Positions 18,945 through 31,743 of a DNA stretch of 64,000 nt are shown here, one piece after another. Location of the stretch: positions 1 to 64,000 of the forward strand of contig DAOUPZ010000021.1 in the NCBI GenBank assembly GCA_030625885.1. Reading direction: 5' to 3'. The notes under the pieces were generated by a model that did not search any database, was not told where the DNA came from, and saw only the letters and a list, made by a program, of their open reading frames with translations. Source of the stretch: Clostridia bacterium (GTDB lineage: Bacteria > Bacillota > DAOUPZ01). Both the position numbers and the translations under genes were made by a program. Within the stretch, counting starts at the first letter, position 1; each line of letters starts with the position of its first letter.

Positions 18945-21848
18945 CTAGGCAAGCTGCCTTTTAGCCAGTTTAGCAAAAAGGCCTTCCTTGTTAATCAGTT
19001 CTTCATAGGTACCATTCTGCACAATCCGCCCATTATGCAACACATAAATCCGATCCGCATTCATAACCGTACTAAGACGGTGCGCTACTACTACCCGGGT
19101 AGCCTGCAAGTTATCCAAGCTTTCACTGACAATTGCCTGTGTCCGATTATCCAGCGCACTCGTCGCTTCGTCAAAAAAGAGCATATGTGGTTTTTTGACA
19201 ATGGCCCGGGCAATTAAAAGGCGCTGCCGCTGTCCTCCCGACAAAGTACCCGCTCCTTCCGTAAGAAAAGTATGCATCCCCATCGGCATTTGCCTGATAT
19301 CTTCGTCTAATCCAGCCATCCGTGCAGCTTCCCAGGCATCATCCAGCGTCAAATTTGCCGATCCGATAATATTGGTAAAAATATCACCGGAAAGCACTTT
19401 GTCATTTTGGAGAACAACACCAATCTGGCGCCGAACACTTTGAACATCCAGCCCATCTAAACCCTGTCCATCATAATAAATCGCCCCTGACTCAGGTGTT
19501 TCAAAACCCAACAACAACCTAAAAAGCGTTGATTTTCCGCTTCCAGACGGGCCAACAAATGCCACAAATTCACCCGATTTAATATGTACAGAAACATCAT
19601 CCAAAATAAATCTCCCATCTGTTTTATAACGAAAACAGGCATGATTGACTTCAATTTCACCTGCCAGTTCACCGACCTCCGCTTTCGCTTCATCTACTTC
19701 TGGCAATTCCTGCAAAATGACTTTTCCTCGCTCATACAAAGGGATAATATTTAGAAGCATCATCCCAATAGATGACAAAGCAATCATAGCCATTAGGAAA
19801 GAGGTAAATGCAGCATTAAAAGCCAGAAAATTTCCTGTAGACAAGTGCACATTCTGCGAAGAAACATACATGGTGAAAATAATCATTGTCGTTATAACAG
19901 GATATGTCCCATTAAATACTGAGAGATAATTGAAAATCATTCGCAACTTAAAAGCAATTTTCCTCTGAATACTGAATTGTTTTGCCCAAAGATAAAAAGC
20001 TCTGTTCTCTGCACCAGCAACACGAAATTTAGCAATACCATTAATAATCTGGAGCACAAGCCCGGATATTTTTCCTTCAATATCCGCATACAATCGATGA
20101 TAACGTATTTGCCCAACGCTTAAAAGAACTATAACACCTATAAACACGCCCCCTAAAGCAACTGCTGTCCATGCTAACGTCATATCGTAAAAAAACAAAA
20201 CCACCAAATTAAAAAGAGAAATCACACTCGTAAACAACGTAGACATAACCGCACCCGAAAAAGCCTCATGAATCGCATCAATCCCCAGTGCTCTTGTTGT
20301 CAAATCCCCTGCCGTAAAACGTCTAAAAAATGTCACCGGCAATCTTAATAGCCGATCCCAGACCGCTGCCTGCAAAGAAGCATTCATCTTTCCTTCTATC
20401 CGTATCAACGTAACAGCGCGAGTAATTTGAAAGAAAAATGCTGCTAAAGAACCTGACATTAGGAGTACGGTCATCCATATCAACTGTCCCCTTTCTGATT
20501 CCGGGATAATACGATCAAATAATATCCCTGTAGCCACGGGGATCATAATACCTAGCAATCCACCCAAAATACCCATTAAAATCACAGTTAGCATATCTTT
20601 TCTGGCAATATCTTTCATTTCAAATCGGAGTAAATCAACCCAAGTAATTGAACGCGCTGGAAAAGGACGATAAAAACTATAGGCAAGTGGCTTTAACCTT
20701 TCCGCAATTTCTTGGGAAACACGCATTTTTACCTGCTTTTGCGGGTCGATTAACTCATAAGAACTAGAACCCACCGGCAGTAAAGCAACAGGTCTTCCAT
20801 CTTGTTCCATGTAACCAACAAGAGGACCATTATCCCTACACCACCACTCTCCCTTTAAAATTACCTGGCGCATACGAATACGAGAAGCCCGGGCAATATC
20901 TCCCAGGGGGTCGTTCTGTTGTCCACTATTTTTCCCCAACAACTGCGGCACGATTTCAATTTCCATAGCATCACCCACCAGTTGGCAAACCCTCAACAGT
21001 GGATCAGATACACCCTCTTTAAAAGCCTGTGTCTCCTCATTTTCATCCACTACAACAGCTGCCAGTTCTGATAGGGCATCTTCCACAAATTTCTGTTCTC
21101 TTACAGCTTTTTTCCTAAAACGGTTTCCTTCCTTCGCTTCCTGTTCTTTTCTATGCCTCCCAATATACTGCAATACTAGATCATGAAATAAATCCAAAGA
21201 TTCTTCGGCAATATCTTGTTTGATAAAGTCTTCTGTCTTGATAACCTGTAGGTCGCTATCTATATGTGAATATAACCATATCTTCTTATTAAGCGGGTAA
21301 AAAACCGCGTTTTTTACACAAGGCCATTCCGCTCCAATAAAACTCAATTTACCTGACAGCGGCTGAACCCACAGTATCTCTTCCTCTGGTCGAATGAACG
21401 AATTTTTCCCCACACTCAATGTCCCATCAGCACAGACCCGGATAAAATCCTTCGGAGGAATATCCTGATTAACGGCCATAGAAAGTTCGTTTACCCAGCG
21501 CTGGAGCAAAACAGCAATATATTGTTGATATTTCACATCATTTGCTAATGCGAACAATTTGGATTTGGGAATCTTAAGAAGGCGTGTACCAGAAGCACCA
21601 TATGCTAAAAGTCCCATCTCCTCCTCTTTCTGTGGCTTTAACCCAAATAATCCTATGCCTGCTCTTACACGATAAAAATGTCTTAACCTCCCTGACGGCT
21701 TACCATTCCTCATTGGCACAGAAAAAATATCTAATCTTCCGTTCTGAACAATCCACACATACTCTGAATCATTCAATAATAACGGCTTATTGCCCTCTAA
21801 ACATATCATGTCGCCCTCTGCTAAAAAAACATTCCCTATATCAGGCAT
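18945..21848 (-). CDS. NHLP-type peptide exporter, ABC permease/ATPase without peptidase
   Basis: A 967-residue ABC exporter subunit of the NHLM_micro_ABC2 type. The first 400 residues are a large cytosolic region with cyclic-nucleotide-binding-like beta structure. Then six helices of an ABC transporter type 1 domain (about 415-700), then the nucleotide-binding domain with [24 protein letters not shown] and [12 protein letters not shown]. In known NHLP systems it pairs with the C39 peptidase exporter, encoded 32 bases upstream. Both ATP sites look intact. It would help move a modified or plain peptide across the membrane. Confidence 0.9.
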   Translation of the reverse strand: MPDIGNVFLAEGDMICLEGNKPLLLNDSEYVWIVQNGRLDIFSVPMRNGKPSGRLRHFYRVRAGIGLFGLKPQKEEEMGLLAYGASGTRLLKIPKSKLFALANDVKYQQYIAVLLQRWVNELSMAVNQDIPPKDFIRVCADGTLSVGKNSFIRPEEEILWVQPLSGKLSFIGAEWPCVKNAVFYPLNKKIWLYSHIDSDLQVIKTEDFIKQDIAEESLDLFHDLVLQYIGRHRKEQEAKEGNRFRKKAVREQKFVEDALSELAAVVVDENEETQAFKEGVSDPLLRVCQLVGDAMEIEIVPQLLGKNSGQQNDPLGDIARASRIRMRQVILKGEWWCRDNGPLVGYMEQDGRPVALLPVGSSSYELIDPQKQVKMRVSQEIAERLKPLAYSFYRPFPARSITWVDLLRFEMKDIARKDMLTVILMGILGGLLGIMIPVATGILFDRIIPESERGQLIWMTVLLMSGSLAAFFFQITRAVTLIRIEGKMNASLQAAVWDRLLRLPVTFFRRFTAGDLTTRALGIDAIHEAFSGAVMSTLFTSVISLFNLVVLFFYDMTLAWTAVALGGVFIGVIVLLSVGQIRYHRLYADIEGKISGLVLQIINGIAKFRVAGAENRAFYLWAKQFSIQRKIAFKLRMIFNYLSVFNGTYPVITTMIIFTMYVSSQNVHLSTGNFLAFNAAFTSFLMAMIALSSIGMMLLNIIPLYERGKVILQELPEVDEAKAEVGELAGEIEVNHACFRYKTDGRFILDDVSVHIKSGEFVAFVGPSGSGKSTLFRLLLGFETPESGAIYYDGQGLDGLDVQSVRRQIGVVLQNDKVLSGDIFTNIIGSANLTLDDAWEAARMAGLDEDIRQMPMGMHTFLTEGAGTLSGGQRQRLLIARAIVKKPHMLFFDEATSALDNRTQAIVSESLDNLQATRVVVAHRLSTVMNADRIYVLHNGRIVQNGTYEELINKEGLFAKLAKRQLA

Positions 21849-21880: not shown

Positions 21881-24085
21881 CTAATTCATACTAATGAGTT
21901 GCTTATAGGGGCCAACCACATCTTTCATTTCCTCATGCGTTCCCCGCTGTACGATTTTTCCCTTATCCAAAACAATAATCTCATGACAATCTCTAATTGT
22001 ACTCAATCGATGCGCAACTATAATACATGTACAGCCACGGCGCCGAATGTAATCGTTAACCTGTCTTTCCGTTTCAGCATCTAATGCACTCGTTGCCTCG
22101 TCAAGGATGAGAATGGTAGGATTCGCTGCCAATGATCGTGCAATTTCCAATCGCTGCAACTGACCACCGCTGAAGTTCCTGCCGTTTTCTTCCAACATAT
22201 GTTCATAGCCATCTTCCCGAGCCAGAATATCACTATGAATACAAGCATCTTTAGCACCATTTATGACCTGAGATTCAGGAATCGTGGTATCCCAGAGTGT
22301 TAGATTGTCCCTAATCGTCCCTTCAAACATACTGATATCTTGATCCACCAACGTTAGAGAATGATTGATCACGGATCGAGGCCATTCATTTCGTGTTTTT
22401 CCATCAAACAATATTTCTCCCGACCAAGGTTGATATAAGCCCGCAATCAATTTGGCAAGCGTTGATTTACCGCTCCCCGAACCACCTACCAACGCTACCC
22501 GATCACCCGGATGCAGTTTTAAATTAAAATTTTCAATAAGAGGAGACTCCAAGCGGCTGTAGCCAAAGGTGACGTTTCGCAATTCAACATACCCATTCAA
22601 TTTACAGGAAATATCTAAATCTTCTGACACGGTTAGCTTATCCTCAACCTGCTTGTCCACAGGATAACGCAACACATCATCCAGACGATTGATATCTCCT
22701 TCCACCTCTTGCAGTTGTCCGCCCAAACTTACCAAGTTGTTCACAGGTGCCATAAAACTAGCCATTAAACTTTGAAATGCCACCAACGCACCCACTGTCA
22801 AATGCCCATTCATAACATGTATACCACCCACTGATAGGATCGCTGTATGATTCAATGCTGTCAGCAATGGCGGCACTGCAGAAAGCAACTGACTGGAAAC
22901 TTCCAGTTCCTGTTCTGAATTAACCAGTTTAGCATGATAGCCAGCCCATTTTGCAAAAAAATCTGACTCTCCGCCACTTGCCTTAAGTGTTTCAATAATT
23001 TGCAAACCTGCCATGGACGTACTAAGCAGCTTTCCCCTTTCCTGCAACAATCTTTGGTTTTGATCAACCCGCCGCCGAGATATATATCTTAAAAAAGCAA
23101 CATTCAATAACGCCATAACAAGGCCGATTAAGGTAAGTGTTATATCATACTGTAACATCAATAACAGAAAAAAAACAATCATCATCGCATCTAAAATATT
23201 CGTTGCCAGCTGCCCGGAAAGTAACCGTGCAATCCGATCATTAAGCAATACGCGGGTTCCTATTTCCCCCCCAAAACGCTGACTAAAAAACTCAATCGGC
23301 AAATGAAGTACATGCCAAAAAAATTTGCTTGATGTACTCAAAGCAAGTTTCATTTCCAAACGCAAAAGATAATACTGTTGTAACCAGGATAATACACCCC
23401 GCAAAACGGCCGTAGCCCCCATCCCCATAAGAAGTGGGAACAACCATTCTTTCATTTCTCCTAACAAGATATGGTCCACAAAAACCTTCGATAATACCGG
23501 AATGACCAATCCGGGAATAACCAAAGCTACGCCCACTAACACAACATAGGTTAATGCCATACCATCACCTGTTAGTCTTCTTTTTAATCCGTTAATAATG
23601 GTTCTTTTTTCACCACCAGGCTTAAAAGCATCACCCGTTTCAAAAGTTAGGACAATTCCCGTAAAGGACTGGTCAAACTCTTCTTCAGAAACAATACGAG
23701 GTCCTACACCGGGATCATTTAAATAAACCCTGCCTTTTTTGAATCCTTCTAAAACAACAAAATGGTTAAAATTCCAGTGAATAATCATTGGACTAGCCAT
23801 TTCCCGTAATGCTGCTGGTTCTTTCCGATATCCCTTAGCAATCAATCCATATTCCCTTGCGGCTTTTATAACATTGCTGGCCTTGCTGCCATCCCGGGAA
23901 ACCCCGCAAGCAAGACGCAATTCTTCCAGAGGAACCAGTTTTCCATAGTAACCTAAGATAATGCCCAGTGCAGCCGCCCCACACTCCACAGCTTCCATTT
24001 GTAACACAGTGGGTGTTTTAACCCGTTTAGGTAATTTTTCTCGATTGTTATTTTGTTTTAACTTTGTTTTTATTTGTATCTGCAT
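21881..24085 (-). CDS. NHLP-type peptide exporter with C39 peptidase domain
   Basis: A 734-residue peptidase/permease/ATPase. The N-terminal C39 domain is complete: Cys35 in [11 protein letters not shown], His108 in NHFVVLEG and Asp124 in NDPG. C39 peptidases cut leader peptides after a double glycine. Six helices follow (about 175-440), then a nucleotide-binding domain with [24 protein letters not shown] and [11 protein letters not shown]. It is the central gene of the export operon, 15 bases behind the HlyD-like adaptor. The likely client is the double-glycine peptide at 28949-29080. Confidence 0.93.
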
Positions 24086-24100
24086 CAGGTTAACAACTCC

Positions 24101-25039
24101 TCAACGGAAAGGAATAATCATTTGAATGGGTCGTTCTTTTTTCACAATAATCGATGACGCACACAGCGTACCACTCGTCATTTTCATATCTGGTCCTTCC
24201 TTTGATGACCATTTATATCCACTCAGCATACCCTCATCGGGTATCAAATCCACGCGCACTTCGATCGGCGCCCCTTTTCCCAATAACATTTGAACCAGTT
24301 CATCTTTTCCTAAAACACGCATCATTTCCCTGTATGTAACCGGATATTTAGAAACTGAAACCACTCTGCCCATCATAAATCCATATTCCTCTTTCTTAAC
24401 AATGGTAGGTGCAATTTGCACATCCATACCGGGCAATATTTTTTTCCCTTCTTCCAGAGGGATATATACAACAGCTTCCAAATTCTTCACCGTATCACCT
24501 TCCAGTTCTAGACTGACAACTGGTGAACCTAAATCAATAAAATCCCCTTTTTGTACCTTTACTTCCAAAACGCGTCCTTCATAGGAACTGACAACTCGAG
24601 AATCTATCTCCAATCTCTCTTTCAAATGATCGATTTCGCGTTCCAATTTATCAGCATTACCGTTAACTATCCCATTTTTGATTTCTTGCAAGTCAAATTC
24701 CATATCACAGATCTGTTCAGTAATTTCTGTATGATCCATTCTCGCAATAACTTCACCTTTATGAACATGATCCCCCGCAACCACTCTAATATCCGCAATT
24801 TGCCCTTCTGAAAGCGCAATAACGTCGGAAATACCGCCGCCTTTAATCAAAACGCCCTGTCCGTTCACCTGAGTGGAAATGGTACCGAATATACTCCATA
24901 AAATGACGCCAATAAGTAAACAACCCAGACCGATCAAAGCCACCCACCCCCGGGGCGTCGTAACAGTCAGTAACTGATCCAGTTGTTCTGGAGACGAGAG
25001 CCGCTCCAATGCTACTTTACGAAATAATTGCTTTTTCAT
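24101..25039 (-). CDS. HlyD-family adaptor of the NHLP-type exporter
   Basis: A 312-residue membrane-fusion-like protein. It has one N-terminal membrane helix (about 33-53), a biotinyl-lipoyl-like half (VIALSEGQIADIRVVAGDHV), a short coiled region (about 115-150) and a C-terminal barrel. It fits the NHLM bacteriocin secretion protein family and would link the two ABC exporters to the outer face. It sits between the binding-protein lipoprotein (42 bases) and the peptidase exporter (15 bases), clearly in one operon. Confidence 0.88.
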   Translation of the reverse strand: MKKQLFRKVALERLSSPEQLDQLLTVTTPRGWVALIGLGCLLIGVILWSIFGTISTQVNGQGVLIKGGGISDVIALSEGQIADIRVVAGDHVHKGEVIARMDHTEITEQICDMEFDLQEIKNGIVNGNADKLEREIDHLKERLEIDSRVVSSYEGRVLEVKVQKGDFIDLGSPVVSLELEGDTVKNLEAVVYIPLEEGKKILPGMDVQIAPTIVKKEEYGFMMGRVVSVSKYPVTYREMMRVLGKDELVQMLLGKGAPIEVRVDLIPDEGMLSGYKWSSKEGPDMKMTSGTLCASSIIVKKERPIQMIIPFR

Positions 25040-25081: not shown

Positions 25082-26251
25082 CTACTCCAGTAAGTAATCA
25101 AACGTCCCCTCCTGCACCACTTTTTTAATCACTAATTTATCCGAAACCTCCCCCATCTCATCAAATGTATGGAAGCCGGTCACCCCGGGCCAGATACTGG
25201 TGGTCCGTAACGCAGCCGCTATTTCATCGGGAACAGTAGAGCTCGCCAATTCCATAGCATGGGCAAGCAACATGACCGCATCATACCCCTGGGCTGCCCA
25301 GGCATCAGGCATGTTACCATATTCTTCTGCAAATGCTTTAATAAATTTCCCTACTTTGGGGCGTTTGTCATACGGATTAAATATGGAAGCTACAACTGTC
25401 CCTTCTGCTGCTTCCCCACAAATTTCCAAAAATTCCGGTAAATCCAAACCATCCCCACTGATAATGGGAACCGCAACCCCTTCTTCCCGTAGTGTACGAA
25501 TAAATTCAGCCCCCTCCGGAACCGTATCTGCTACAAAAACACCGTCAAAGTTAAAAATTCGCCATTTATCCAATGTTCGTTTAAACGTTTCATGGTCGCT
25601 TATATTGGTACACCGATCAACAATTGAGATACCTTCTTCCTGCGCCTGGTCCTCAAACGAATTAGCCAATCCCCGCCCGTATTCATTATCCGCATAAACG
25701 ATCACCATCCGTCGACAACCCTTTTCCATAGCAAATTGAGCCATTTGGCTGCCAATTTCCGTATCACTGGGAATACTACGAAAAATACGTTTATAGCCCA
25801 TTTGTGTGAGCTTAGGACTCGTAGAACCCGGTGTCAACATCAAAAGCCCCGTCTTCTCGTAAATTGCTGAAGCCGGCAGGGACACAAAGGAATTACCATG
25901 ACCGATTACAGCTACTATATCCAAATTATCTGCAAAATCCTGCGCTATTGTCATCCCTCTAGTCGTCAAACCTTCATCATCTTGACGTATTAGACGAATC
26001 TTACGGCTCATTACCCCCCCTGTTGAATTAAGTTCCTGTGCTGCCAGTTGAATGCCTTCCCAAATCATATCATTCCGCTTGGAAAAAGGCCAAGCGACGC
26101 CGATTACAATATCCCCTTTTGCTTTTTTAGCCTTGGCAGCCCGCTCACCAGCTAGATCATGCTCACCTAAACAACCTGTCATAAAAATCATGACACAAAT
26201 TAATACCGCTAAAACCTTATATTTCATAGTAAAGTAAGGCTTATTCAACAA
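25082..26251 (-). CDS. LivJ-like type I binding lipoprotein in the export operon
   Basis: A 389-residue lipoprotein. The signal ends in a lipobox (IFMTGC, Cys27), followed by a periplasmic-binding type I fold (Peripla_BP_6) with IGVAWPFSKRNDMIWEGIQLA and PGSTSPKLTQMGYKRIFRSIPSD, as in branched-chain amino acid receptors. The LivHMGF membrane parts are absent. The start is TTG at 26251, nine bases behind GGGAGGAGG; the ATG eight codons later has no ribosome site. As first gene of the export operon it may be a ligand sensor or a receptor for the exported peptide, or serve the NCS2 permease; all three are inference. Confidence 0.85.
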   Translation of the reverse strand: MLNKPYFTMKYKVLAVLICVMIFMTGCLGEHDLAGERAAKAKKAKGDIVIGVAWPFSKRNDMIWEGIQLAAQELNSTGGVMSRKIRLIRQDDEGLTTRGMTIAQDFADNLDIVAVIGHGNSFVSLPASAIYEKTGLLMLTPGSTSPKLTQMGYKRIFRSIPSDTEIGSQMAQFAMEKGCRRMVIVYADNEYGRGLANSFEDQAQEEGISIVDRCTNISDHETFKRTLDKWRIFNFDGVFVADTVPEGAEFIRTLREEGVAVPIISGDGLDLPEFLEICGEAAEGTVVASIFNPYDKRPKVGKFIKAFAEEYGNMPDAWAAQGYDAVMLLAHAMELASSTVPDEIAAALRTTSIWPGVTGFHTFDEMGEVSDKLVIKKVVQEGTFDYLLE

Positions 26252-26367: not shown

Positions 26368-27333
26368 TTAATCACTAAGTTTCAACAACACTTTTTTCGC
26401 ATTAGGCTGCAGCGCATGCTTAAACGCTTCTTTAAATTCCCGGAACGGGTAAACCCCTTCAATAAGCGGCCGAACATCAACCAGGCCGTTTCTCAAAAAA
26501 GACAATGCCAGTCTAATATCCCCACAACGCGAACCAACCAAATGAATCTCATCCACGACCACCTTTGCAAGATTAATTTGAGACAGTTCGTGAGATGTCG
26601 TTTTTAGTACAATCGTTCCTTCCGGCCGGACAAATTGGAGCGCATCATTGACACCATCTGCCTGCCCCGTCGCTTCAATTACAATATCAAAATGATGCGG
26701 CAATTTTATATCAGAAGAAACCTGAATAGTATTTATCCCCTGGCTTTTTGCAATTTCCAACTTGCTTTCATGCTTGCCAACCAGCAAAAGATCAGGATTA
26801 TAATGTTTCAAAGCAAGCGCAATTAACAATCCCAGTTTCCCATCTCCTAAAACCAAAACCTTTAAATCGCTGGTCATATGAATTTGCTGACTGATTTCCA
26901 GCGCAGCAGCTAGAGGCTCGGCAAACACAGCTGCTTCAGTAGCAACAATATCATCAACCAGATAAATATTTTTCAAGGGAACCTTAACATACTGAGCAAA
27001 CGCACCATCCATCCCTTTAATCCCTACTGTTTTCCGCGATACACAGTGACGATGATTGCCTTTTAAACACCAGCTGCAAGTCCCGCAGCCACAATTAATA
27101 TCCGCCACAGCTCTTTTACCTTGCCACTCCGGTCGTTGTGGCGCCTTTTCAATAACGCCCACAAATTCGTGTCCGGGTACTCCTGCAAAATCATAATACC
27201 CTCGATAAAGCTCTACATCCGTATTGCAGATACCAGCCATTAACACTCTAATTAATACTTCATCTTCTTCAGGTACCGGTATCGGTTGATCTATAAACTC
27301 AATACGCTGATTTTGAAATTTGATGCATTTCAT
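26368..27333 (-). CDS. Zinc-dependent medium-chain alcohol dehydrogenase
   Basis: A 321-residue MDR-family oxidoreductase acting with NAD(P). Catalytic zinc ligands lie in GICNTDVELYRGY and PGHEFVG; the structural zinc site is CGCGTCSWCLKGNHRHC. The Rossmann part has LVLGDGKLGLL. The frame is open to 27462, but the MDR domain begins at ATG 27333, which has AAAGGAATGGG upstream; the extra 43 residues are not family-like. It lies between the TPR gene and the export operon. The 117-base gap to the export operon holds no strong terminator. Substrate unknown (sorbitol/threonine-type branch). Confidence 0.9.
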   Translation of the reverse strand: MKCIKFQNQRIEFIDQPIPVPEEDEVLIRVLMAGICNTDVELYRGYYDFAGVPGHEFVGVIEKAPQRPEWQGKRAVADINCGCGTCSWCLKGNHRHCVSRKTVGIKGMDGAFAQYVKVPLKNIYLVDDIVATEAAVFAEPLAAALEISQQIHMTSDLKVLVLGDGKLGLLIALALKHYNPDLLLVGKHESKLEIAKSQGINTIQVSSDIKLPHHFDIVIEATGQADGVNDALQFVRPEGTIVLKTTSHELSQINLAKVVVDEIHLVGSRCGDIRLALSFLRNGLVDVRPLIEGVYPFREFKEAFKHALQPNAKKVLLKLSD

Positions 27334-27567
27334 AAATAACCCATTCCTTTCTTGTTTCTTTCTTTTTAAGTTCCACACCATGCATACGGTAACCTTTTTC
27401 ATATTTTTATTAATTGTTATGTTTAACTTTACAACTGACGGGTATATATAAGACAAGCCCAATTAAATATGCAAGAATAATATGGGACAGTCAGTATGAC
27501 AAAAATTCAAATGACTAGAAAGGAGGGAGATTCCTTTAATATGGAATCAACACCACCAAAAACAGAA

Positions 27568-27667: not shown

Positions 27668-28789
27668 TTATGATGCTTCCTCCGTCGTAAATAACATTCG
27701 GACGCCTTTAATTAGCCGCTTCCCGTCTAGATCCCTTACATTATCAGTGATATAGAGAAAATAACTTTCCCCTGGCTGGTACTGTGCCTCATTTGCCAAT
27801 GCGATCGTCACTTTACGACCTGTTTCATTCATAGTAACAGCTGTTGGTATCAGCATACCCTCTAAATCCTCAATGTAAATATTATCATGATTGATGCTTT
27901 CCAGATCAACAGATACATTAAATTGAACCATCCATTCCTTATTTAAAGAGATATTTTTCTTAACATCATCCCATTTCCTATATTTAATACCGTCTAACGT
28001 ATCATCAATCTTTGCCAGCAGCGCTTCTTTAGCCGCAATAGCTTTTTCATAGGTATCATCCAAAGATAACGCATGATAATAAGCACTTAAAGCCTGTCCG
28101 TCTTTTCCCTGCCCTTCTAAAATCAACCCTTTGTTTTTATATAGTACAGCTTGACTGGTATCTATCCCAATCCCCCTTGTAACAGCGACCATTGCTTCAT
28201 CATATTTCTCAAGATACCATAATGCTTTGGCTTTATTGTTATAAGACAGAGCTATAATATATGGATCGACATCCATGTTTATAATAATATCATATGTATC
28301 CGCTGCTTCCTGGTAACGTTCCAAGGCGATTAACATCATCCCCTTGTAGAAATTATTTTTATCATAAGAGTAAAGTTTAATACTTTCTTCAAAAGCAGCC
28401 AAGGCGCTCTCTGCATCACCCTGCATAAACAGGCAAATTCCTTTCCACTCATAAGGGTTATAATGGGGCTGGATTGCTATTGACTGTTCAAACGCTGCCA
28501 GCGCATCATCAACACGTTTCAGGTAAAACAAACAACCTCCTTTATACGCATAGCACTCTCCATGATCAGGATTTAATGCAATTTCCTGCTCAAATTGCTC
28601 CAAAGCTTCCTGGTATTTCTCTTGTTCATATAAAGCAATGCCATTCTCAAAATAGGTGTTTTCATCCGTCTCTGTTATGTCCACTGTCATTATATCCAGT
28701 TTTACAGGTAACATTTCGTCTGCTGCCAATGCACCCGTTACATTGAAGAATATTGCCAACATCATAATGATGATACATATCCGTTTCAT
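27668..28789 (-). CDS. Exported TPR protein with C-terminal Ig-like (SbsA) domain
   Basis: A 373-residue protein. The signal peptide is at residues 1-22 (ending ALAA). Seven or so tetratricopeptide repeats cover about 42-250, with clear units such as ALEQFEQEIALNPDHGECYA and ALAAFEQSIAIQPHYNP. The last 90 residues resemble an SbsA-type Ig-like domain (Big_5), with WDDVKKNISLNKEWMVQFNVS and PGESYFLYIT. It is probably a surface scaffold. It is encoded directly after the double-glycine peptide, separated by a terminator, with its own GGAGGG ribosome site. A role in the peptide system is possible but unproven. Confidence 0.85.
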   Translation of the reverse strand: MKRICIIIMMLAIFFNVTGALAADEMLPVKLDIMTVDITETDENTYFENGIALYEQEKYQEALEQFEQEIALNPDHGECYAYKGGCLFYLKRVDDALAAFEQSIAIQPHYNPYEWKGICLFMQGDAESALAAFEESIKLYSYDKNNFYKGMMLIALERYQEAADTYDIIINMDVDPYIIALSYNNKAKALWYLEKYDEAMVAVTRGIGIDTSQAVLYKNKGLILEGQGKDGQALSAYYHALSLDDTYEKAIAAKEALLAKIDDTLDGIKYRKWDDVKKNISLNKEWMVQFNVSVDLESINHDNIYIEDLEGMLIPTAVTMNETGRKVTIALANEAQYQPGESYFLYITDNVRDLDGKRLIKGVRMLFTTEEAS

Positions 28790-28921
28790 TTACCATCCCT
28801 CCTAAGTCATTTATACAGCTAAAGTGTTTTTTTTATGAACCATGCATGCGAAAAGAACATGAACTTATCTTTTACATTCAAAAATATCACCATCTCTAAT
28901 ATTCAACCGTTTTCCTATAAT

Positions 28922-28944
28922 AAAAACAGCCTCAGGCTGTTTTT
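28922..28944 (-). terminator. Terminator of the double-glycine peptide gene
   Basis: Perfect ten-bp stem (AAAAACAGCC and complement), three-base loop and T-run, five bases after the peptide stop codon. It marks the small gene as its own transcription unit. Confidence 0.92.
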
Positions 28945-28948
28945 ATTA

Positions 28949-29080
28949 TTAATTAGATTTGCCATAAGGTGGTGGTGTCTCAGGATAACCGCCTGCCACT
29001 TGATCGAGGTCTTTTTCTTCTAACGCCTCATCTTCCAAATTCTTTTTCTCTTCTTTCTTCAGGTCTTCCATGATCTCCAT
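28949..29080 (-). CDS. Double-glycine leader peptide precursor (candidate exported peptide)
   Basis: A 43-codon gene with AAAGGAGGTT directly before the ATG (a second ATG at 29071 is nine bases later). The product has a very acidic/basic, helix-prone leader of 31 residues ending EEKDLDQVAGG, the classic cleavage signal for C39 peptidases. The 12-residue core, YPETPPPYGKSN, follows. A perfect terminator lies five bases after the stop. It lies 4.9 kb upstream of an NHLP-type C39 exporter on the same strand. The core has no Cys, Ser or Thr pattern for lanthipeptides, and no maturation enzyme is nearby, so it may be an unmodified signal or toxin. The leader is shorter than classical NHLP or Nif11 leaders. 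Confidence 0.82.
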   Translation of the reverse strand: MEIMEDLKKEEKKNLEDEALEEKDLDQVAGGYPETPPPYGKSN

Positions 29081-29274
29081 AACCTCCTTTATACTTTGAT
29101 AACAAACCATTGAGTAACCGCATAATATTAATATATGATTTATACCCCTATAATAATATTAACATATATTATTTATAATTAATACCATAAATTAACTTTA
29201 TATACAATAATGTCCTAGTGGATATTAACATTCATTTGAACTCATATTCTATAACATATAGATAATATAAAAAA

Positions 29275-29303
29275 GACAGTTGACAATATCATCATCAACC
29301 GTC
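29275..29303 (-). terminator. Terminator of the DAACS symporter gene
   Basis: GACGGTTGA and TCAACTGTC pair across eleven bases on the minus strand, followed by TTTTTTATATT, just after the symporter stop at 29311. Confidence 0.8.
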
Positions 29304-29310
29304 CTATATT

Positions 29311-30651
29311 TTATGCTTTACAATTTTTCCGTTTTAACTCAAACCCATATGTACTTTCCTTGTCACTTGCAATTAGAGCTGCAGCAGCACAATTAGGATA
29401 AAAATTAATAAGAGTCAATATGGGATCTAAAACAGGATCCAGAGCAATCAAAATGACCACAATAGCTGCCGAAGGAATACCCAGAGGCGATAAAATCATA
29501 CTAATCATCGTAACCGCAATAATTCCGGGTGCACCCGTAGACGCTACTGCTGCCAAAACGGATGTAATAATAATAATTAAAAGGCTTTGCAAATCCAAGT
29601 GATATCCGTACAATTGCGTTGCAAAAATTGAACCCACTGAAAACATTAAAATATCACCATAACGACATAAAGTAACACCCAGTGGAACCGATAAATTGAT
29701 ACGATCTTCGTTAAGCTCTAACCCTTTATGCAAGCCAGTTATGGCAGCAGGAATGGCCGCAAAACTATTCCTTGCTCCTAAACAAATAATAATAACATCA
29801 CCTAATACCTTAAATTGACGCCAATACTTATTAGAAGCAGCCCACCCTATGACTAAAGTACAAACGAAGAATATGGCGACAGCCGCAACATAAACAAGCA
29901 TAACCAGTTTAATAAGAGAAATAAGAATCGTAAAACCAACCTGCGCAAATTGATCTGCCATTAAAGCACATAACCCAAAAGGCAAAAAATACATCGAAAC
30001 ATTAATAAGTTTTTGAAAACCCTCAAAACACCCTTCAAATAGAAGAATTATGTTGTTATAAGCCGGTTCAGAAATAAAATTAATCAATACCCCCAGTACG
30101 ATAAAGAAAAAAATAATCTTTAAATTTTCCCCGTTCGTTAAGGCCGTAAATATATTTTTAGGCACAATATTAATAAAAAAATCTATTAAACCGGGTTTTT
30201 CTTCCTTCTCCAAAAGCGAAGAATCATAGCGGGAATCAATTTCCTTCATAATGGAACCAAATTCCATCTCCTCGCCCCCATTTGCATTTTGCAGCATCAT
30301 AGATCCAATTGTTTTTTGGGTTGCAGTACTTACGGTTAATAACGGCCTAGCTATAAGAGAAACACTAATACTGATTAATGAAGCAGAAAAAAGAAAGATA
30401 ATAAATACCTTTAAAATCTTAGTTAAATACCTGCTTTCATTATGAGATTTTAATAACTTGGCAATACTCACAACGACAGCTGAAGCCATAATCGGAATAA
30501 CACACATTTGCAGAATAGAAAGATAAATATCACCTAACGGTTTAAGATATAATGCAAGATCTTTGAATTTTATACCAATGATAACACCTGCAATCATACC
30601 AGCTAAAATAGCCCAAGGGCTTAACAAAAATGCAAATTTTTCTTTACGCAT
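29311..30651 (-). CDS. Dicarboxylate/amino acid:cation symporter (DAACS)
   Basis: A 446-residue Na+/H+-coupled carrier of the SDF (GltP/DctA) family with eight or so helices and two hairpins. Visible family stretches include AGMIAGVIIGI near the N-terminus and the C-terminal VASTGAPGIIAVTMISMIL followed by ALDPVLDPILTLINFYPNCAAA, where the substrate-binding Asp and Asn lie. GGAGGAATAAGC precedes the ATG. It is encoded 26 bases behind a solute-binding protein, an unusual partner since DAACS carriers do not normally use one. Substrate likely an acidic or neutral amino acid or dicarboxylate. Confidence 0.92.
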   Translation of the reverse strand: MRKEKFAFLLSPWAILAGMIAGVIIGIKFKDLALYLKPLGDIYLSILQMCVIPIMASAVVVSIAKLLKSHNESRYLTKILKVFIIFLFSASLISISVSLIARPLLTVSTATQKTIGSMMLQNANGGEEMEFGSIMKEIDSRYDSSLLEKEEKPGLIDFFINIVPKNIFTALTNGENLKIIFFFIVLGVLINFISEPAYNNIILLFEGCFEGFQKLINVSMYFLPFGLCALMADQFAQVGFTILISLIKLVMLVYVAAVAIFFVCTLVIGWAASNKYWRQFKVLGDVIIICLGARNSFAAIPAAITGLHKGLELNEDRINLSVPLGVTLCRYGDILMFSVGSIFATQLYGYHLDLQSLLIIIITSVLAAVASTGAPGIIAVTMISMILSPLGIPSAAIVVILIALDPVLDPILTLINFYPNCAAAALIASDKESTYGFELKRKNCKA

Positions 30652-30677
30652 GCTTATTCCTCCGCTAAATAAAATAT

Positions 30678-31634
30678 TTATAAATCAGGATTTTTCTCAT
30701 ATATTTCGGGATATTCCTTTATTAAAGTTTTTACGTCTTTTTTTACATCATATGTTTCTAGATAGGTATTAATCCAGGATAACAGGTGAGTACTTTCCCA
30801 GGGTACAGCAATAGCAATCGCATCCTTTTGATCTTTTAACACATACGCAGAAGTATATAAAACCATATCCGGTCTCTGCCTGATAATTTTAGTCACTTCG
30901 TTCTCATCATATATAGCTGCAACAATTTCACCTTTTATAAGCGCATCTGCAACATCAGGCCACGCTTTATATGTCTTAATTTCTGCATTTTCAAATAGTG
31001 TTTTTGCAAACTCAACATAAGAGGTTCCTGCTTCTACACCAATCTTTACCCTGGCTTTTCTTAAATAATGCATTGGATAATCCTCAATATCATGCTTGGC
31101 AGCTTCAACTTTATTAACCAGTAAAGCCTGACGGAAATTAGCATAAGGTTGACTATATCGAATATACTTAGACCTCTCAAACGTCCTGCTAAATTGAGAA
31201 ATAACAACATCCACTTCCCCTTTAGCCACCATTTCAAACAACTCCTGATAACTTTGGGCCTGACGATTAAATTCCGCATCTACATGAAGACAACGGGCAA
31301 TATCTTTCGCGATCTTTACATCTACCCCATAGAGTTCTCCATTTTTATCCCTCATAAAAAACGGAGGTTTATCTTCATAATACATCCCAACGGTTAGCTT
31401 TCCTTTTTCAATAATTTTTTTCATAGCCGGAGCAATCGGTAAATCCTTTATGGTAATTTCTTCTTTAAGTGCCCCTATTTCCTCGCTGTTTTTAAAGATT
31501 TCGCTTTCTTTAATCATACTATCCTCAAAATCATTTTGCTTCGCCTGTATTTTAGCCGTATTTAACTTAATTCCATAAAATCCTAGTAATATAACAATTA
31601 TAATAACAATATACTTTTTATTATTCCACAACAT
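30678..31634 (-). CDS. Membrane-anchored solute-binding protein (SBP_bac_3)
   Basis: A 318-residue protein. An uncleaved-looking N-terminal helix (about 7-22, no lipobox cysteine) and a linker to residue 70 precede a normal-order family 3 amino-acid-binding domain: LTVGMYYEDKPPFFMRDKNGELYGVDVKIAKDIA, DVVISQFSRTFERSKYIRYS, then VKIGVEAGTSYVEFA. No ABC permease or ATPase is nearby; the next gene is a DAACS symporter, so the two may form a receptor-carrier pair. ATG 31634 fits AAGAGG five bases upstream better than GTG 31640. Confidence 0.85.
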   Translation of the reverse strand: MLWNNKKYIVIIIVILLGFYGIKLNTAKIQAKQNDFEDSMIKESEIFKNSEEIGALKEEITIKDLPIAPAMKKIIEKGKLTVGMYYEDKPPFFMRDKNGELYGVDVKIAKDIARCLHVDAEFNRQAQSYQELFEMVAKGEVDVVISQFSRTFERSKYIRYSQPYANFRQALLVNKVEAAKHDIEDYPMHYLRKARVKIGVEAGTSYVEFAKTLFENAEIKTYKAWPDVADALIKGEIVAAIYDENEVTKIIRQRPDMVLYTSAYVLKDQKDAIAIAVPWESTHLLSWINTYLETYDVKKDVKTLIKEYPEIYEKNPDL

Positions 31635-31743
31635 AATCACCTCTTGTTAGTAGCTTTTCACTATAATTAATTACATTATGGTATAAATATACCATAATAA
31701 TTGTACATCACCCATTTTATCAGTAAAATAATTAATTGTAAAT

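Follow-up and report, generated by a model that had tools for sequence, protein, structure and literature searches.

Precursor peptides with NHLP or Nif11 (N11P) leaders were described together with the TIGR03794/TIGR03796/TIGR03797 export system (Haft 2010, PMC2887384). There is precedent for one NHLP exporter serving many precursors, and Haft and colleagues, noting that the exporter has a wider distribution than NHLP leaders, anticipated additional types of precursor (PMC2887384). The consensus of PCAT substrates is L(-12)xxxE(-8)L(-7)xxxxGG; the leader binds via positions -7 and -12, while -4 determines specificity, V-4 packing on I137 of LahT (PMC6959990). LahT150 cuts Nif11, NHLP and short leaders, and 13 leader residues suffice (PMC6363468). 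Double-glycine leaders carry three or four conserved residues (PMC7018657).

Here we analysed a stretch of 64,000 nucleotides from a Clostridia bacterium (the window), which encodes an NHLP-type exporter and a formerly uncalled double-glycine precursor. To our knowledge, the cargo of NHLP exporters without a nearby modifying enzyme is not known. The window has the exporter type of NHLP/Nif11 systems, the arrangement of one exporter with many precursors and the leader end ELxxxxLxxVAGG, and two NHLP peptides and one Nif11 peptide are encoded in the same genome. Its peptide differs in a leader of only 28-31 residues that has no NHLP or Nif11 domain, a Cys-free 12-residue core and the lack of a local maturase. 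The likeness to LahA/LahT (PMC6363468) lies in the C39 domain, whose closest PDB relative is 6mpz, and in V-4 with the Ile facing it; LahA peptides are Nif11-type lanthipeptide precursors in one cluster, whereas the window peptide has no lanthipeptide enzyme nearby. With the streptococcal ComAB/BlpAB/RtgAB peptides (PMC7018657) it shares the short leader, the hydrophobic residues at -4, -7 and -12, and an exporter common to several peptides encoded elsewhere. In contrast to those, the window exporter belongs to another subfamily, with a HlyD-like partner and a second ABC subunit, position -15 of the leader is not hydrophobic, and no known pheromone receptor was seen.

The peptide gene and its transcription unit

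The preliminary description had proposed an uncalled small frame encoding a double-glycine leader and a short core, preceded by a strong ribosome site and followed by a perfect terminator. We found this frame on the minus strand, and its translation reproduces the leader end and core as they had been read. We annotated the following features:

28949..29080 (-), double-glycine precursor peptide gene (sequence, leader motif, leave-one-out HMM E 8.7e-7)
29083..29090 (-), Shine-Dalgarno box AAAGGAGG (sequence)
28917..28949 (-), intrinsic terminator hairpin directly after the peptide stop codon (folding energy)
29273..29305 (-), terminator of the upstream SDF symporter gene, separating the peptide's transcription unit

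Translated from 29080, the frame reads MEIMEDLKKEEKKNLEDEALEEKDLDQVAGGYPETPPPYGKSN up to its stop codon, with an acidic leader ending in EALEEKDLDQVAGG followed by the 12-residue core YPETPPPYGKSN. The start codon called for a correction. The Shine-Dalgarno box lies only 2 nt from the ATG at 29080 and 11 nt from an in-frame ATG at 29071, so that a 40-residue product (MEDLKKEEKK...) appears at least as likely as the 43 residues originally given. The second ATG has an additional GGAG 3 nt upstream.

The leader carries L-12, D-8, L-7, V-4 and GG at -2/-1, with Asp at position -15. Four of the 12 core residues are proline, none is Cys, the net charge is 0 and there is no hydrophobic or amphipathic stretch. 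Within short ORFs with an acidic leader, the motif L...[DE]L..[VIM][AST]GG is found a single time in the window and in none of 150 simulated second-order Markov sequences of 64 kb each. A looser leader motif was found at 0.07 per 64 kb in these sequences and once in the window; a similarly loose scan of about 50 kb from other parts of the same genome found none. The gene at 28949-29080 is a genuine double-glycine precursor gene.

The peptide stop codon runs into the hairpin (28949-28917, minus strand), which has a 15-bp perfect stem and a TGA loop. Its folding energy of -17.5 kcal/mol (z -7.0) was equalled by no shuffle, in agreement with the perfect terminator claimed before. Since the symporter gene has its own terminator (29305-29273) and the TPR gene starts 160 bp further downstream, the peptide gene forms a transcription unit by itself. 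It is not co-transcribed with the exporter, which we counted against the exporter reading.

Sister peptides and family searches

Searches of the same genome with the peptide, a degenerate DNA pattern and a profile recovered seven further short-leader precursors. Four additional precursors have longer NHLP- or Nif11-type leaders. These are:

contig 15, one short-leader sister, core IADGDWYSPNYEEDMLEKLKAAAGK
contig 23, two short-leader sisters, cores NYQAVPTAPC and GVIRPPKPDAPGGQ
contig 29 (locus L040, 9486-9656), short-leader sister in a prophage, core AFPTAVNDQITDAVTQ
contig 31, three tandem short-leader sisters, cores RLTREDLNRTIII, RIDPPGRKYLRP and VDENSPEDGMLYGFIPQDK
contig 15, two NHLP peptides above the TIGR03793 cut-off
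contig 23, one Nif11 peptide above the TIGR03798 cut-off
contig 24, putative NHLP-like peptide with an 8-residue core

The genome thus encodes at least 12 precursors, the eleven other than the window peptide being scattered over five other contigs. L-12, L-7, V/I-4 and GG are present in all twelve and an acid at -8 in 11. A leave-one-out profile built from the other seven short-leader peptides recovers the window peptide with E 8.7e-7 among 3667 segments. The cores of the twelve are hypervariable, 8-25 residues long, and only two contain Cys; YPETPPPYGKSN is common to no other peptide, and the cores of most sisters are just as small and polar. The prophage-borne sister has a ParB/DNA methyltransferase gene as its neighbour, with terminase and portal genes not far away, and had no match in phage records.

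The window peptide itself had no match in Pfam or PHROG, and its NCBIfam matches concern leaders only and fall below the cut-offs. The NHLP leader family TIGR03793 gave no match at E 1. The Nif11 leader family TIGR03798 reached 13.6 bits (E 0.061, leader end only; cut-off 32.3 bits) and the XyeA triceptide precursor family TIGR04495 18.3 bits (E 0.0019; cut-off 33 bits). There is no XyeB-type maturase beside the window peptide, as the only SPASM protein of the genome is encoded on contig 23.

No orthologue of the core was found in the phylum draw of 398 other genomes or in plasmid records, where the whole peptide also had no match. The eight-peptide profile matched 3 of the 398 genomes, none with a like core, as compared with 10 of 50 genomes that have a related exporter (Fisher p 2.8e-8). 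The open frames in those ten genomes are 85-207 residues long, the size of long-leader precursors, and we rejected them as the same peptide type; the enrichment therefore ties the leader end to the exporter, not the window peptide type.

Exporter, neighbouring genes and related loci

The export genes of the window form a compact row:

21881..24085 (-), NHLP exporter with C39 peptidase, TIGR03796 NHLM_micro_ABC1 (1134.6 bits, cut-off 853)
18945..21848 (-), second ABC subunit of the NHLP exporter, TIGR03797 (963 bits, cut-off 709)
24101..25039 (-), HlyD-like secretion protein of the NHLP system, TIGR03794 (347 bits, cut-off 156)

The exporter is the sole protein of the genome above the TIGR03796 cut-off. 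The nearby C39 exporter with a complete triad had been correctly recognised in the preliminary description: its catalytic Cys35, His108 and Asp124 are all present, in one copy in the genome. Among PDB structures, the C39 domain is closest to LahT150 (6mpz, E 2.9e-48), PCAT1 (7e-11) and ComA being far more distant, and I137 of LahT, which faces position -4, is conserved as Ile144. The window leader agrees with the published PCAT consensus at -12, -8, -7 and -4 (PMC6959990), and it shows the hydrophobic residues at -4, -7 and -12 followed by GG that characterise PCAT substrates (PMC6959990, PMC7018657). A hydrophobic residue at -15, which is found in many but not all PCAT substrates and is not strictly defining, is absent. 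These residues and the LahT150-like domain support the proposed fit between precursor and exporter. Given a single exporter, a LahT-like C39 domain and the leader signature, export of the window peptide by this exporter is the natural reading; judging from the sequences, the peptide is most likely cleaved and exported by it in trans, and all twelve precursors probably leave the cell by the same route.

The remaining neighbours of the peptide gene are:

27668..28789 (-), secreted TPR + Big_5 protein, next gene downstream of the peptide (contig 23 homologues also adjoin double-glycine peptides)
26368..27462 (-), zinc-type alcohol dehydrogenase-like protein (conservation in related exporter loci not seen)
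25082..26251 (-), Peripla_BP_6 solute-binding protein (conserved upstream of HlyD in related exporter loci)
29311..30651 (-), SDF-family symporter, DctA/GltP-like (in 12 of 80 related exporter loci)
30678..31640 (-), SBP_bac_3 solute-binding protein, paired with the symporter

By alignment, the genome encodes four TPR/Big_5 proteins, three of which adjoin double-glycine peptides, two of these within one contig 23 cluster; the fourth (contig 12) has no such peptide beside it. Over its length, the TPR/Big_5 protein of the window shares 39 percent identity with the one beside GVIRPPKPDAPGGQ, and the NYQAVPTAPC peptide adjoins a papain-lectin-TPR-Big_5 protein. Proline makes up 4/12, 4/14 and 2/10 residues of the three TPR-adjoining cores. 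Binding of a short extended core peptide in the TPR groove is an attractive guess. Other sisters have other neighbours: the gene immediately downstream of the contig 15 short-leader peptide encodes a dCache chemoreceptor, the three contig 31 peptides precede a HAMP-GAF hybrid histidine kinase, which CheR follows in turn, and the contig 24 peptide lies after an S-layer-type protein. The contig 23 cluster (L035, 2816-13321) contains three double-glycine peptides, the papain-lectin-TPR-Big_5 protein and a TIGR04064 radical SAM maturase, together with a MarR-like regulator, an RCC1-repeat protein and lipoprotein-like genes.

We compared 80 related exporter loci, which were retrieved by similarity to a single exporter and do not count as independent. 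Among these, 65 have room for a Peripla_BP_6 protein upstream of HlyD, and 44 of the 65 carry one there on the same strand within 3.5 kb. The word 'periplasmic' is absent from the paper describing the system (PMC2887384), and this protein may be an unrecognised component of NHLP export. Eight of the 12 symporter-bearing loci also have a detectable SBP_bac_3 protein, and the pair encoded at 29311-31640 recurs in Peptococcaceae, Paenibacillaceae and Muiribacterium inside NHLP exporter loci (L048, L050, L058, L061, L067, L070, L087 and L109). The nearest relative of the window symporter is a paralogue on contig 12 of its own genome (57 percent) that lies outside any exporter locus, so the link between symporter and exporter is evidence from neighbourhood, not from orthology.

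Double-glycine peptides, some with short leaders, lie directly before the SDF symporter in Cohnella and Paenibacillus and, as in the window, directly after it in a Muiribacterium locus; short-leader ones are neighbours of NHLP exporters or of the symporter in loci from Cohnella, Paenibacillus and Spirochaetes. The Cohnella and Paenibacillus peptides (L058, L109) resemble the window peptide in the short acidic leader, the Cys-free charged core and the position beside symporter and SBP_bac_3, but their cores are unrelated and 28-44 residues long, and there is no TPR/Big_5 protein. Another recurrent precursor beside NHLP exporters, seemingly without a family name, has a leader end like DELxDxxLDMVAGG and a short polar core starting with [LVT]N (L046 3631-4011, L047 9894-10205, L049 6860-7273, L082 12791-13102, L083 14980-15225, L084 12470-12787 and L091 15443-15700). 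In two Paenibacillus NHLP loci (L060 18461-21680, L065 17039-20432), GNAT and ketoacyl-synthase genes come after those for the peptide and the symporter, which suggests fatty-acylated products.

Proposed function and alternative readings

We propose, with a probability of about 0.72, that the single NHLP-type C39 exporter takes the short-leader double-glycine precursor as a substrate and secretes a core with an extracellular role. For this, the leader helix (L-12, D-8, L-7, V-4) would dock onto the C39 domain, Cys35 would cut after GG and the 12-residue core would be pumped out, the same exporter serving at least eleven further precursors. The core would probably leave unmodified, because it contains no Cys and no modifying enzyme is encoded nearby, and it could serve extracellularly as a signal or as a ligand that binds a partner, perhaps the adjoining secreted TPR protein. 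We infer cleavage and export with more confidence than the unmodified state, the signalling role and the TPR partner. The signal-peptide role suggested earlier is plausible on the basis of core size and neighbours; the neighbours mix several gene types, and part of this pattern could be chance.

The statement that no maturation enzyme is nearby holds within the window; elsewhere in the genome, the one SPASM radical SAM protein, a TIGR04064 Nif11-peptide maturase (605 bits, cut-off 519), lies on contig 23 between two double-glycine peptides and beside homologues of the window's TPR/Big_5 protein. This arrangement would suit a modified RiPP, with the core altered in trans before export, by this maturase or another enzyme, to yield a small natural product. 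PapB/SCIFF-type thioether chemistry requires Cys, and YPETPPPYGKSN offers none for a Cys-thioether radical SAM RiPP (ranthipeptide or sactipeptide), whereas Nif11 cores beside TIGR04064-like enzymes have Cys. As the leader also lacks a Nif11 domain (13.6 bits against the TIGR03798 cut-off of 32.3), modification by TIGR04064 is unlikely. Precursors of NHLP systems are mostly modified (PMC2887384) and the leader resembles XyeA weakly (E 0.0019, below cut-off), but with no maturase seen within the window, and a genome-wide search that covered SPASM radical SAM enzymes, we regard modification of any kind as rather unlikely.

A small bacteriocin or microcin, released through the NHLP exporter against competitors, is less probable still. 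Such exporters are annotated as bacteriocin exporters, and the precursors are numerous with hypervariable cores; a core of 12 residues with net charge 0 and no hydrophobic or amphipathic stretch speaks against this role, as do the equally small and polar cores of most sisters and the lack of any obvious immunity-like gene beside the peptide gene. The missing orthologues and the unshared core would also fit a decayed, non-functional remnant of a larger cluster, an explanation that the intact frame, the Shine-Dalgarno box, the terminator and the complete leader signature make very improbable.

Secretion of the core through the single exporter remains our preferred reading. The window peptide would then be a new substrate type for an export system already known, related to NHLP/Nif11 precursors but with a short leader and a tiny core. 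That an NHLP exporter can have many precursors was known before (PMC2887384); what sets the present case apart are leaders that are short and lack a domain, tiny and mostly Cys-free cores with no maturase encoded locally, and the recurrent association with secreted TPR proteins. More speculatively, and rather unlikely, one NHLP exporter might broadcast a dozen or more tiny (8-25 residues), mostly Cys-free peptides, most with a gene for a surface or sensory protein as neighbour (secreted TPR/Big_5 protein, chemoreceptor, hybrid kinase or S-layer protein), as modular signalling. Of the further precursor types expected for NHLP exporters, the finding names one, with a short leader and a tiny core, that gene callers and leader models have missed. 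If the TPR proteins or sensors encoded next door bind the cores as ligands, this would be an arrangement of many signals and one exporter.
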